Notes under the pieces: generated by a model
The model's input: the letters and a program-made list of their open reading frames with translations, nothing else
Told to the model about the DNA's origin: nothing
Databases searched by the model: none
Translations under genes and position numbers: made by a program
NCBI RefSeq assembly: GCF_019599405.1
Contig: NZ_RKLQ01000001.1
Location: 930,001 to 994,000, forward strand
Reading direction: 5' to 3'
DNA length: 64,000 bases
Source: Haloarcula salinisoli
Lineage (GTDB): Archaea > Halobacteriota > Halobacteria > Halobacteriales > Haloarculaceae
Shown here: positions 49,342 through 61,737 of the stretch, piece after piece
How positions within the stretch are numbered: the stretch's first letter is position 1
Layout: the number at the start of each line of letters is the position of its first letter

Positions 49342-49482
49342 GCCCTCCGACTGCTCGCTAGCAATCAATTTGCCTGCTACGACAGCGACTCACTCCTCGA
49401 AAGCCCTCGACTGCTCGCTAGCAATCGATTTGCCTGCTACGCCCACTGCTCACTTCCCGAAAGCCCTCGACTGCTCGCGGGC
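49342..49482. repeat. 60-bp tandem repeat, about 2.3 copies
   Basis: CTGCTCGCTAGCAAT begins at 49351 and 49411 and its degraded form CTGCTCGCGG at 49471, an exact 60-nt period. Units share CCCTC-GACTGCTCGCTAGCAA, then TTTGCCTGCTACG, with a more variable second half. Confidence 0.85.
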
Positions 49483-49603
49483 GCTGTGACGGATACCTCG
49501 CTTCGCTCGGTAGTGCCGCCACAGCGCTCCACGGCTCACTCCGTTCGCCGTTTCGCCACGAGGAATCTCCCTGCGGTCGATTCCTCGCGCCCGCGACCCG
49601 TCT

Positions 49604-49742
49604 CGCCCTTTCAGTCCACCAGGGATTGCCTGCCCTCCCCCGGGTCGCGCGACGGAGCGCACTCCCGGCCGCGAAGCCGTTTCATCGGCTGAGTCGGGGA
49701 AGGGCAGGCTGACGGCGGAGAACCTGGCGGACTGGAAGGGCG
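49604..49742. repeat. Long imperfect inverted repeat (139 nt span)
   Basis: CGCCCTTTCAGTCCACCAGG (49604-49623) is complementary to CCTGGCGGACTGGAAGGGCG (49723-49742) at 18 of 20 positions. Inside, GCCTGCCCTCCCC (near 49628) faces GGGGAAGGGCAGGC (near 49696). It could form a long hairpin or be the remains of a small mobile element. Confidence 0.65.
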
Positions 49743-49799
49743 AGCTCGGTCGGCGCGGGTGCGCGGGCCCTATCCGAGCGAAGCGAGGATATCCCGCAC

Positions 49800-49988
49800 A
49801 GCCGGGTCGAGCGGGCGAGGGCTTCCGAGTGCTACAAACCAGTACAGTCGCTGTCGACAACGAATACTAGCCGGGTCGAGCGGGCGAGGGCTTCCGAGTG
49901 CGACAAACCAGTACAGTCGCTGTCGACAACGATTACTAGCCGGGTCGAGCGGGTGAGACCACTGTCCTGTCCAGGGACAAGAATTGCT
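49800..49988. repeat. 69-bp tandem repeat, two full copies plus a shorter third
   Basis: Units start with AGCCGGGTCGAGCGGG at 49800, 49869 and 49938, and AGCCGGGG starts again at 49989. The first two units differ at only a few positions. The third is 51 nt with a different middle (a TGTCCTGTCCAGGGACA hairpin). Units are contiguous, with no spacers. Confidence 0.88.
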
Positions 49989-56801: not shown

Positions 56802-57848
56802 CTACCAGGTACCGTGGAACGTGTCGAACTCCAGCTCTTCCAGCTCCTTCTCGCCGATGGCGATCTCGTACTCGCCGGGGGTGAGCATCGGCTTCTTGAA
56901 CTGCGGGCCGTCGTCGGTCGTGATGCGGGGACAGCCGGTGTTGACGTAGGCGTCCATGCCGAAGTTCGTGAGCCGGTCGGGAGTGACCTCGTCCATCGTG
57001 ATGAGGTAGGCGTCGTCGTTGTTCTCGACGATTTCCTGGGCCTGGTCCCAGCGGCCCTGGCCGATCTTCGTACAGAAGATGACGCCCCAGCTCTCGGCGT
57101 CCATCGCGCGGTGGACCGCGCCGTAGCGCTGCTTCATGAACTTCTCCGTGTCCGCGATGGTGACGGCGTTGTTGACGGGGTCGGCGATGATGACCTTCTT
57201 GTCGGGGTGTTCCATCGCGAGCCCGAGCGGGTGGAACTTCCCGCCGCCGACATACAAAATCTGGTCGGCGTCGACGTCGGCGCTGGCGTAGTTGCAGCCA
57301 AGCACCTGCCCTTCGTGGGTGAGCCGTTCGTCACCACGCTGGGTGTGGACGGTGTAACCTCGCTCTTCGAGCCACTCGCGCATCTCGCCGAACTTGTTCA
57401 TGTGCTGGGCCGTCGTCACGAGCCCCACGTCGGGGTCCTCGTCGGGGTCGGTGAGCTCCTCCTCGAAGGCCTGCTCCATGATGGGTGTGACTTCGACGTT
57501 GGAAAATAGTGGGACGTAGATTATCTTGTCAGACTCCTTCATGGGGGAGTGGCCGAAGTGGACGAAGACGTCCGTGCGTCGCATCATGTAGGTGTCCAGG
57601 TCACAGGCGCCGTAACATGGCTGGCCCGACATCATCACCTGGACGTCGTCTGGGAGCTCCTGGCGCAGGTCGTCAGTGACTGCCGGGCCGCGGCGTTTCA
57701 GTCCCTCGGGGAACTGCAGCCCGACGGTCTCGGCGTCGCGCTCCTCGACCTCCTCGACGATGCGGTCTATCTCGTAGTCCCACTCACGGTCGTGCTTCAG
57801 CGAGAGGCCCGTATTGCGAAGGTCCCCCTCGGTTCGCTCTTGGCTCAT
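56802..57848 (-). CDS. dph2: Diphthamide synthase subunit Dph2
   Basis: 348 residues from the ATG at 57848; the frame to 58034 overlaps the divergent gene's promoter. The three cysteines that hold the non-classical radical-SAM 4Fe-4S cluster are present: Cys82 (PCYGACDLD), Cys185 (VLGCNYAS) and Cys306 (VNTGCPRIT). It transfers the 3-amino-3-carboxypropyl group of SAM to a His of elongation factor 2, the first step of diphthamide. Archaeal Dph2 is a homodimer. It is divergent from the CC-tail locus. Confidence 0.95.
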   Translation of the reverse strand: MSQERTEGDLRNTGLSLKHDREWDYEIDRIVEEVEERDAETVGLQFPEGLKRRGPAVTDDLRQELPDDVQVMMSGQPCYGACDLDTYMMRRTDVFVHFGHSPMKESDKIIYVPLFSNVEVTPIMEQAFEEELTDPDEDPDVGLVTTAQHMNKFGEMREWLEERGYTVHTQRGDERLTHEGQVLGCNYASADVDADQILYVGGGKFHPLGLAMEHPDKKVIIADPVNNAVTIADTEKFMKQRYGAVHRAMDAESWGVIFCTKIGQGRWDQAQEIVENNDDAYLITMDEVTPDRLTNFGMDAYVNTGCPRITTDDGPQFKKPMLTPGEYEIAIGEKELEELEFDTFHGTW

Positions 57849-57954: not shown

Positions 57955-58353
57955 ATGAGCGTCGAAACCGAGAACGTCACCGAAATCGACGACGACCACG
58001 TCGATAAGCTCGCGGCCGAACTCGGCGAGAGCATCGCCCAGCTCCCGGTCTACCAGGAGTTCCTGCAGGCGAAGGCGAAAGTCGAGAACGACGCCGACGC
58101 CCAGCGAGCCATCGAGGAGTTCGAGCAGCTTCGCGAGGAGTTCCAGATGGCCCGCCAGACCGGCCAGGCAACCCAGGAGGACCTCCGGAAGGTCCAGGAG
58201 GCCCAGGAGGAGCTCCACGACATCGCTTCGATGAGTGAGTACCTCGAACTCCAGAACGAGCTCGAGGCCCGTCTCGCGGAGATAAACGACCTCGTCTCCG
58301 AGCAGCTCGAGGTCGACTTCGGCGAGAAGGCCGGCGGCTGCTGTCAGGACTGA
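57955..58353 (+). CDS. hcsL: YlbF-family coiled-coil protein with Cys-Cys tail (halo-CC-star HcsL type)
   Basis: 132 residues. Residues 10-115 form long amphipathic helices with the YlbF/YmcA pattern (LGESIAQLPVYQEFLQAKAK, EEFEQLREEFQMARQTGQ). The protein ends FGEKAGGCCQD, a detached tail with adjacent cysteines. In Bacillus, YlbF-YmcA-YaaT form an iron-sulfur-binding complex that affects RNase Y, so the Cys pair here may also bind a cluster or take part in disulfide chemistry. I recall the RefSeq name halo-CC-star HcsL for such proteins, with moderate certainty. Its partner is at 59020. Confidence 0.8.
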   Translation: MSVETENVTEIDDDHVDKLAAELGESIAQLPVYQEFLQAKAKVENDADAQRAIEEFEQLREEFQMARQTGQATQEDLRKVQEAQEELHDIASMSEYLELQNELEARLAEINDLVSEQLEVDFGEKAGGCCQD

Positions 58354-58566
58354 AGGGTCCGTTCTTGCGGTCTGCTTTTTCCGGCCGATAGCTCCGCTGA
58401 CGCCCCCACGAAGCCGCTGGTGCGGCGGTGGTCGTGTCACTGCATCGCGAATCGAGCACGGCGGGTGTCCCGTAACACTGACTACTGGGGAGCTAGCTGT
58501 CTGCACTGCTGGCAGGCGAGAAGGCATATACGCATAGAGAACACAGCTACCTAACGATTCGAGAGT

Positions 58567-58986
58567 ATGGTGGGGGCGAGGCCGGTCAGGGATATCACGA
58601 CCTTCGTGAGTTGCTACCTCCTCCTATCCCTGCCCCCGTTTCTCTACCTGAATCGGGGCCTGTCCACGCTGGTCACGGACATCGCCCTGCTGGCGACTGT
58701 CGGCATGGTAGCGTTGGTCCTCGTCACGTCGCTGTTTTTCATCAGCGAAGGGGTCGAGCGCTACACCAACTTCTTTTTCGACGTTACCGACGTCTACTCC
58801 GTCTTCGTCGACCTGGCGTTCGTCCTCGCAGCTGTCTCGTGGTGGGCCGTTCCGGAACTCGCGACCCGATTCGAGTGGGGGGCCCAGCTTCGGTACGTCC
58901 TCACGGCCATTATCGTCTGTCACGTCCCGATGGTCCTGCTTCTCTCCCTGCTGACTATCATTGGTCGCGCCCAGACGGCCTCGTGA
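58567..58986 (+). CDS. Four-helix membrane protein between the two CC-tail genes
   Basis: 139 residues with four hydrophobic segments (TFVSCYLLLSLPPFLYL, DIALLATVGMVALVLVTSLF, VFVDLAFVLAAVSWWAV, VLTAIIVCHVPMVLLLSLL). Between helices 2 and 3 is ISEGVERYTNFFFDVTDVYS. I do not recognise a family. It lies 213 nt after the YlbF-type gene and only 33 nt before the 36-residue CC-tail gene, so it and the small gene probably share a transcript. A TATA-like GCATATACGCAT is near 58524-58535. Confidence 0.72.
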   Translation: MVGARPVRDITTFVSCYLLLSLPPFLYLNRGLSTLVTDIALLATVGMVALVLVTSLFFISEGVERYTNFFFDVTDVYSVFVDLAFVLAAVSWWAVPELATRFEWGAQLRYVLTAIIVCHVPMVLLLSLLTIIGRAQTAS

Positions 58987-59019
58987 AGCGGTCCCAGTAT
59001 CGCCACACAGGGTTGGCTC

Positions 59020-59130
59020 GTGGCAACTCCCAGTACCGTGTCCGACACCGCCGACGACAGAGACTGGGTCCACGTCGAACAGTTCGCGGGCGACCTCGCC
59101 GAGAAGGCCGGCGGCTGCTGTCAGTACTGA
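59020..59130 (+). CDS. hcsS: 36-residue Cys-Cys-tail protein (halo-CC-star HcsS type)
   Basis: Frame from the GTG at 59020 (or the in-frame GTG at 59038) to the TGA at 59130. It contains DDRDWVHVEQFAGDL and ends AEKAGGCCQY. The last 33 nt match the 3' end of the gene at 57955 at 30 positions, 25 of them in one unbroken run, yet the rest is unrelated. The acidic composition and the conserved tail support translation. I recall RefSeq halo-CC-star HcsS for such short proteins, with moderate certainty. Confidence 0.72.
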   Translation: MATPSTVSDTADDRDWVHVEQFAGDLAEKAGGCCQY

Positions 59131-59185
59131 CTCTGTCTTCTCCGTTCGATACCCAGCGAACTGCCGTCGCTCAGCGCCGCGACCG

Positions 59186-59497
59186 CTACCGACTCTCGAA
59201 CTGCGTCATGAACACGCCCAGCGCAACGAGGGCGGCAAAGGCGCTGATACCGCGCTGGATCAGAAACACCAAATCGACGTACGTCCGGGCGAATCCCTCG
59301 CCGACGGTGTACATCAGAACGCGAAACACCAGCAACAGTTCACCGACTACGGTGGCGACGACGAGACCGCCGGCGACGACGACGAGGGCGTAGCAGGCGT
59401 AACGCGCGATTCGTCTGATCGGGACTTCCTCGTCGGGACCGAACTGGCGGGCTTGTTTCGCGAGCACGGGGAGGAACGTGCGGAGCATGCACGACAT
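59186..59497 (-). CDS. Small membrane protein, unknown family
   Basis: 103 residues from the ATG at 59497, or 100 from the one at 59488; the longer frame to 59641 is not protein-like. It has a basic N-terminal stretch (AKQARQFGPDEEVPIRRIAR) and then about three hydrophobic segments (YALVVVAGGLVVATVVGELL, LLVFRVLMYTVGEGFA, GISAFAALVALGVFM). No known motif. It converges with the CC-tail locus, with 55 nt between stops. Possibly part of the same membrane function, but only proximity suggests this. Confidence 0.65.
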   Translation of the reverse strand: MSCMLRTFLPVLAKQARQFGPDEEVPIRRIARYACYALVVVAGGLVVATVVGELLLVFRVLMYTVGEGFARTYVDLVFLIQRGISAFAALVALGVFMTQFESR

Positions 59498-59658
59498 ACC
59501 TGTGGGGTTAGTCAAAGTGGTGTCGACTCGACGACAGAATCTCCCGGCCGGTTCACGGACCAGCGGCTCGTGTTTCACGCCGACGAGCGGACCCACGGCG
59601 TCGGGGGACGGCCTCGTCGGTCGTAAGGCCTTAGCCGCCACCCTGCGCAGAGTTCGCC

Positions 59659-60570: not shown

Positions 60571-61737
60571 ATGAGTGATTCGCAAGCGTATGAGGCGATT
60601 ACTGTCGCCTCGGATGGGGTCAGTGTCACCAAGCGATTCGAGGCCGACGAGTTCCCCGTTCCCGCTATCGCGTTCAACGTCGTGTCGAAACGCTCCGAAA
60701 CCGTCAATCTCCGGCTAGTCGATACGGTCCCGGACGACGTGGCCGTCGAGGACCTGGGCTTTCACCCCGAGTACGGCTCCGAGTTCTGGGATATCAACGA
60801 CGACCAGATAACCTTCGAGAAGGAGATCGAGGCCGACAGCGACTACACCACGGTGTACGGCATCCGGGCCACCGGTACCGACGACGTCGAGAAGTTCCTC
60901 ACGGAACCGACAATCGAGAGCGTCGACCCGCCGCTGGACGAGTCCGAAGAAGACCTCGTGGGCGGTGACAACGACGCTGTCAAAGATGTCATCGCGGGCG
61001 AATCCGACAGCGTGCCCGGGCTCGAGGACGAGGAGGACGAGGACATCGAGACGCTGAATCTGAAAGACCCCAACAACGAGGGGGAACCGGCCGCCGACGG
61101 CGAAGCCAGTGCCGACGGCGAGGACACAGAGGACGGCGGGGCGGCTGCCGACGGCGAGGCGCCAGCGACGGGCAACGTCGTCGCGGCGATGGCCAACGAG
61201 ATTCGGCAGAACAACGTCTCGGCACAGGACGTCAAACTCCTCAAGCGAGCCCTCGACGCGGTCTCCCAGGACAGCGACCCGGAGGGCGGCGTCAACACGG
61301 CCCGAATCAACCGCATCCAGAACGACATCGCGGACCTGCGCGCGTACACGGACGCGCTCGAGGAGTTCCTCGCCGAGAACGGCACCGGTGACGAGATAAT
61401 CGAGGAGTACGGCGAACGGCTCGACAGCTTCGAGAGCCAGCTCGACTCCTTCGAATCGGAGATAGAGAGCGCCAAATCGGCTGCCGAGGCCGCCACTGAC
61501 GAGATAGACGAGCTCGGTGGGAGCGTCGACTCGCTCGAGGATGGCCTCGAAGACGTCGAGGGCTCCGTCGACGCCGTCGAGGGCGAGCTGGACGACCTCG
61601 AAGCGGAAATCGAGGACGTCCGGGAGGAAATCGGCGACGGGGAGCTGGACGACCGGCTCTCGACGGTCGAGGACGACATCGTGCAGCTCAAGGAGTGGCG
61701 CGAGCAGCTCTCCTCGGTCATCGGCGGCGGCGAGTAA
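60571..61737 (+). CDS. Haloarchaeal beta-domain / acidic linker / coiled-coil protein
   Basis: 388 residues in three parts. Residues 1-110 form a beta-rich domain (VSVTKRFEADEFPVPAIAFN, TVNLRLVDTVPDDVA). Residues about 120-205 are a disordered Asp/Glu/Gly linker with repeated ADGEA. Residues about 215-388 are a helical region ending in a long coiled coil (SFESQLDSFESEIESAK, then LEDGLEDVEGSVDAVEGE). The N-terminal part recalls archaeal surface-protein-like beta domains, but there is no signal peptide. Family not recognised. It may be a scaffold or chromosome-associated protein. Confidence 0.75.
   Translation: MSDSQAYEAITVASDGVSVTKRFEADEFPVPAIAFNVVSKRSETVNLRLVDTVPDDVAVEDLGFHPEYGSEFWDINDDQITFEKEIEADSDYTTVYGIRATGTDDVEKFLTEPTIESVDPPLDESEEDLVGGDNDAVKDVIAGESDSVPGLEDEEDEDIETLNLKDPNNEGEPAADGEASADGEDTEDGGAAADGEAPATGNVVAAMANEIRQNNVSAQDVKLLKRALDAVSQDSDPEGGVNTARINRIQNDIADLRAYTDALEEFLAENGTGDEIIEEYGERLDSFESQLDSFESEIESAKSAAEAATDEIDELGGSVDSLEDGLEDVEGSVDAVEGELDDLEAEIEDVREEIGDGELDDRLSTVEDDIVQLKEWREQLSSVIGGGE

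Follow-up and report, generated by a model that had tools for sequence, protein, structure and literature searches.

On sequence grounds, the ylbF product of a Haloarcula genome is a haloarchaeal protein of the Com_YlbF family whose C-terminal Cys-Cys pair is invariant in the loci examined. The gene lies in a 64-kb window, the whole stretch of DNA that was analysed, and is followed by a gene for a membrane protein and by a short frame that ends in nearly the same tail (Table 1). We give about even chances to the joint reading in which the tails of a YlbF oligomer would ligate a metal or an Fe-S cluster, the short frame would be a by-product and the membrane gene a passenger. Most knowledge of YlbF proteins comes from Bacillus, where they work with RicT and RNase Y; a widespread archaeal branch, apparently devoid of both, would show what the fold and the tail do alone, and Haloferax volcanii could serve to test this. 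Among named organisms, the closest relative seen for the source genome (G000) is Haloarcula rara, with ~93% identity over the neighbouring genes. All the features given in a preliminary description of the locus are present, namely ylbF, the membrane-protein frame between the tails and the short frame.

Table 1. Features of the ylbF locus, with positions in the 64-kb window.
Feature	Position	Strand	Description
dph2 (diphthamide synthesis enzyme)	56802..57848	-	TIGR03682, 347.2 bits against a cut-off of 202.8; divergent neighbour of ylbF
ylbF	57955..58353	+	132-aa helical protein of the Com_YlbF family; PF06133, 77.8 bits against a cut-off of 23.9
ylbF tail	C129-C130		DFGEKAGGCCQD; the only two cysteines of the protein, which ends EKAGGCCQD
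3' end of ylbF, origin of the duplicated stretch	58299..58353	+	matches 59076-59130 at 48 of 55 nt
139-aa protein with four hydrophobic segments	58567..58986	+	no Pfam or NCBIfam family above cut-off; lineage-restricted
Short frame	59020..59130	+	36 aa from GTG 59020, ends AEKAGGCCQY; no orthologue found
Short frame, alternative start	59038	+	inner GTG; 30 aa
Partial duplicate of the ylbF 3' end	59076..59130	+	shares frame and stop with the ylbF end; 6 of its 7 differences change the amino acid

The earlier assignment of the first protein to the YlbF type was borne out by its PF06133 score, the match extending over residues 18-118. Its structure model is all-helical (pLDDT 82.7), and the best fold match of the model is RicF (6prk_A; TM 0.82 by target length, Foldseek probability 1.00, E 1.0e-3), with RicA and other members of the family ranking next; in a sequence-profile search, RicF and RicA likewise rank with the closest solved structures. 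In profile searches, Com_YlbF matches were obtained in 21 of 21 Haloarcula genomes and in 103 of 145 genomes of the class (HcsL paralogues, described below, are included in this count), the remaining 42 having none. The source genome has a single match, and a match is also present in H. volcanii, used as a control. An excerpt of PMC10067837 reports a YlbF that is raised in aerial hyphae.

The preliminary description held that its proposal would fall if the tail were not conserved in orthologues; the Cys-Cys pair, followed by two to three residues, was found at the C terminus in 84 of 84 loci, in proteins with 47-100% identity to that of the window. These loci represent at most 83 genomes, given that L031 and G029 are one genome, they may contain further repeats of G genomes (L033-L037), and they cover part of the 103 class genomes positive for Com_YlbF. 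Genomes fetched because they miss the exact AGGCC pattern are among them, and some of these read GACC. Loci found by the Pfam model were not selected for the tail, because the PF06133 match ends before it. C129 and C130 are among the 18 of 132 positions with a conservation of at least 99%, and the mean conservation is 0.84 for residues 119-132 vs 0.70 for residues 21-118. The pair is preceded by a conserved glycine and followed by an acidic residue, and no further cysteine is found outside the last seven residues in 77 of the 84 loci. In the model, residues 124-132 are unordered (pLDDT < 50). A tail so well kept on an archaeal YlbF is worth a metal assay.

The best analogy for such a tail is one of those already suggested in the preliminary description, a metal or Fe-S cluster. 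In an excerpt of PMC6751060, RicF C134 and C146 together with RicA C141, residues near or at the C termini, are reported to ligate [4Fe-4S] cluster 2 of Bacillus subtilis with RicT C167, and loss of the RicF or the RicA tail to break the complex with RicT. The window protein has in common with RicF (YlbF) and RicA (YmcA) the fold, the family profile (PF06133) and cysteines at or near the C terminus; in contrast, the haloarchaeal cysteines are down to one Cys-Cys pair in the tail. The source genome also differs from the RicAFT system in that it has a single Com_YlbF match, and neither RicT nor RNase Y turned up in the 13 Haloarcula genomes searched: PSP1/RicT gave no match at E <= 1, whereas control genomes did give matches, and for RNase Y there were only weak partial matches, none of them above the cut-off. 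By this analogy, the YlbF tail is predicted to hold a metal or an Fe-S cluster, and probably does. Because no RicT match and no RNase Y match above the cut-off was obtained in 13 of 13 genomes, the site would be built from the tails of several YlbF chains or with another partner. YlbF would thus work as a homo-oligomer, or with some partner, and its flexible tails would bring at least two Cys-Cys pairs together to ligate the metal, most likely an Fe-S cluster as in RicA/RicF, but without RicT. The low confidence of the modelled tail counts against the predicted site, and no geometry in the model supports it.

A vicinal disulfide or a docking tag would account equally well for a pair of adjacent cysteines in each chain. 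In the corresponding alternative, the tail would join YlbF to a partner through a vicinal or mixed disulfide, with no metal at all. It is favoured by the presence of just these two cysteines per chain in 77 of the 84 loci, and by their position between a conserved glycine and an acidic residue in a tail that is unordered in the model; nonetheless, the nearest characterised relatives use their C-terminal cysteines for an Fe-S cluster (excerpt of PMC6751060), and we regard a redox or docking role as possible but rather unlikely.

The second tail, in the short frame, is real at the DNA level, as had been noticed (EKAGGCCQD and EKAGGCCQY). Within the last 33 nt the 25-nt identical run was recovered (58323-58347 and 59100-59124), although the alignment gives 31 matching positions and not the 30 first counted. 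The two bodies had been called unrelated, which is incorrect, as at least the last 18 codons are common to both genes: the alignment extends the duplicate beyond what was first noticed, with frame and stop shared, which makes the latter half of the short frame a copy of the ylbF 3' end. Over these 55 nt, a search of the whole source genome gives E = 1.5e-12. In the window, only two exact direct repeats are longer than the 25-nt run, and both belong to an array at ~49.8 kb. This direct repeat array spans 49348-49934 and contains exact repeats of 33, 30, 21, 20 and 19 nt. With EKAGGCCQ taken as encoded in both frames, the codon usage of five genes of the window would yield the same 24 nt with a probability of ~0.01, and the 24 nt upstream of these codons show 18 matches against a mean of 9.0 in in-frame coding windows (P = 0.001); therefore, the similarity reflects a copy and not chance. 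The copy carries one difference in its last 30 nt and six in the preceding 25 (Fisher P = 0.039), which hints at preservation of the tail, and the GC content at the three codon positions of the short frame (0.67, 0.50, 0.83) bears a weak resemblance to that of coding sequence. A DNA search of the source genome with the stretch returned 41 matches, including the short-frame copy and the end of ylbF; three weaker ones were read and taken for chance.

The idea of a modular tail common to two conserved proteins did not hold, as the short frame, within the scope of the searches, is private to the source genome. Of 32 Haloarcula genomes, 30 contain the tail pattern, and it occurs twice in the source genome only. 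When 242 genomes of the class, the source included, were searched with the 36-aa sequence, matches at E <= 1 were obtained in 87; the best one in the source genome is the short frame itself, and the other 241 genomes gave no convincing relative in the rows read and the 19 loci aligned, which were YlbF tails or weak matches to chance or shadow frames. Those in G133, G091, G241 and G169 resemble shadow frames of a different gene. Plasmid records gave no match to 58960-59190. In H. rara, G029 and G007 the interval from the membrane gene to the next gene is shorter and the stretch with the short frame is absent; the term insertion rests mainly on this length, because the intergenic sequence aligns poorly among these genomes. 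A class-wide search for the GGCCx pattern, a check proposed in the preliminary description, gave matches in 239 of 391 genomes, 11 of them with two. The second match was read in six of the ten other genomes (G009, G001, G204, G371, G250 and G091, leaving G056, G110, G266 and G271), where it falls in chance-like frames, none of which is a copy of the YlbF tail.

The short frame is best read as a lineage-private, possibly expressed, partial duplication. We infer that a small duplication, landing behind the membrane gene, left it there as a by-product. Its translation product, if there is one, would be a short acidic peptide with a second Cys-Cys tail, able at most to contribute to the putative YlbF cluster or to compete for it. 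The short frame may offer a clear example of how a tail is duplicated.

A different pair of proteins with similar tails, HcsL and HcsS, is present in some other Haloarcula genomes. The locus had been named as this halo-CC-star pair, a term not found in the literature searched; the name is wrong here, given that the window YlbF scores 58.7 bits against the HcsL model (NF041416), whose cut-off is 140. The 36-aa frame was also rejected as HcsS (NF041415, cut-off 55), with no family match at E <= 1, and a profile search of the source genome gave no HcsS above the cut-off. In contrast, the two members of the pair that were tested, both from other Haloarcula genomes, one HcsL (from locus L029; 165.3 bits vs 140) and one HcsS (84 vs 55), both pass the NCBIfam cut-offs. 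As in the window, the pair consists of a long and a short protein with similar tails, and HcsL is likewise YlbF-like with a terminal Cys-Cys (hhalign probability 98.7% for HcsL vs YlbF). The differences are that HcsL ends in the Cys-Cys itself (GGGCC followed by the stop in 7 of 7 loci), whereas the window YlbF has QD beyond it (CCQD), and that the 36-aa frame is devoid of the HcsS body. In six of the seven loci an HcsS-like frame ending in CC and a stop overlaps the end of hcsL, with none at L026. When four of these six frames were compared (L025, L028, L110 and L112, with L027 and L029 left out), the last 33 residues of HcsS aligned to the last helix and Cys-Cys tail of YlbF/HcsL (hhalign probability 92.5%), and HcsS matched the HcsL model with E = 0.006. 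From these alignments we propose that HcsS is a cut-down YlbF that keeps the last helix and the tail, which, if true, would explain the halo-CC-star pair.

By the same logic, the short frame might be a functional mini-YlbF, a tail donor joining YlbF as HcsS may join HcsL. HcsS/HcsL suggests that a truncated tail donor has evolved once beside a full-length YlbF, and within the copy the tail has diverged less than the rest. However, a second tail is found in none of the 31 other Haloarcula genomes and an orthologue in none of the 241 other class genomes; the short frame keeps 18 codons only, without the helix that HcsS retains, and six of its seven differences change the amino acid. The tail also shows no synonymous change, so that a recent copy or gene conversion fits as well as selection. 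Taken together, we consider a functional mini-YlbF unlikely. We hold with similarly low confidence the broader proposal of a RicT-free YlbF in which the Cys-Cys tails of several chains would build one Fe-S cluster, and whose tail module would have been copied into HcsS and, freshly, into the 36-aa frame.

Dph2 is an Fe-S enzyme, and in 62 of 76 haloarchaeal loci its gene and ylbF lie in divergent orientation, at distances from 93 nt to ~5 kb. This count is of loci with at least 1.4 kb upstream, with one genome counted twice (L031 = G029) and with flanks of different lengths; where a short flank showed no dph2, a longer one was taken, and the 14 loci without the gene comprise 13 with ~6 kb of flank and one (L035) with 3 kb. 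The tailed YlbF might serve Dph2, keeping or reducing its [4Fe-4S] cluster in aerobic haloarchaea as Dph3 does in eukaryotes; we judge such a role of YlbF quite improbable. The divergent arrangement within the fetched flank of these 62 loci speaks for it, as do excerpts of PMC3541065, which names Dph2, Dph5 and Dph6 as the core pathway of archaea and lists Dph3 for yeast, and of PMC11048331, where Dph3 is an iron-binding electron carrier that activates Dph1-Dph2. Against it, the distance varies and further genes, an MBL-fold gene among them, travel with the block, which may be plain synteny; furthermore, Dph2 is present in 58 of 59 archaeal genomes according to an excerpt of PMC3541065, whereas 42 of the 145 class genomes are without Com_YlbF. 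Since conservation extends to further genes of the block, the link to diphthamide synthesis is a lead only.

A DNA or RNA element (a terminator or a recombination site), in place of a protein tail, would agree with a match at the DNA level that ends at the stop codon, but this reading of the shared stretch was disfavoured as very improbable: the folding of the two copies is no better than that of shuffled sequences (z 0.45 and -0.35), no terminator-like site lies at the stretch, the peptide is kept across genomes while codons vary, and full-length ylbF orthologues were seen that keep the peptide and lose the DNA stretch.

The membrane protein between the two tails was confirmed as a frame with hydrophobic segments (Table 1), but its co-occurrence with the tail, a check proposed in the preliminary description, is limited to 5 of 32 Haloarcula genomes. 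In each of these five carriers the gene is located behind ylbF. Among the 145 class genomes, matches at E <= 0.001 were found in four, the source included; the one in G140 is a 47% relative with an inner stop, on a contig other than that of ylbF, and the remaining two are marginal. The membrane gene would then be a lineage-restricted passenger.

Several other features were observed downstream of the short frame. A fast-evolving, membrane-protein-like frame lies at 59186-59641 on the minus strand, which is not in the corresponding interval of G029 and G007 and has ~41% identity in H. rara. The palindrome TAAGGCCTTA (59624-59633), ~25 nt before the MBL-fold gene (59659), is conserved in position in H. 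rara, G029 and G007, and is a possible operator or promoter element. The MBL-fold gene is followed by a gene for an acidic 388-aa coiled-coil protein (60571-61737), and this order is kept in many relatives.
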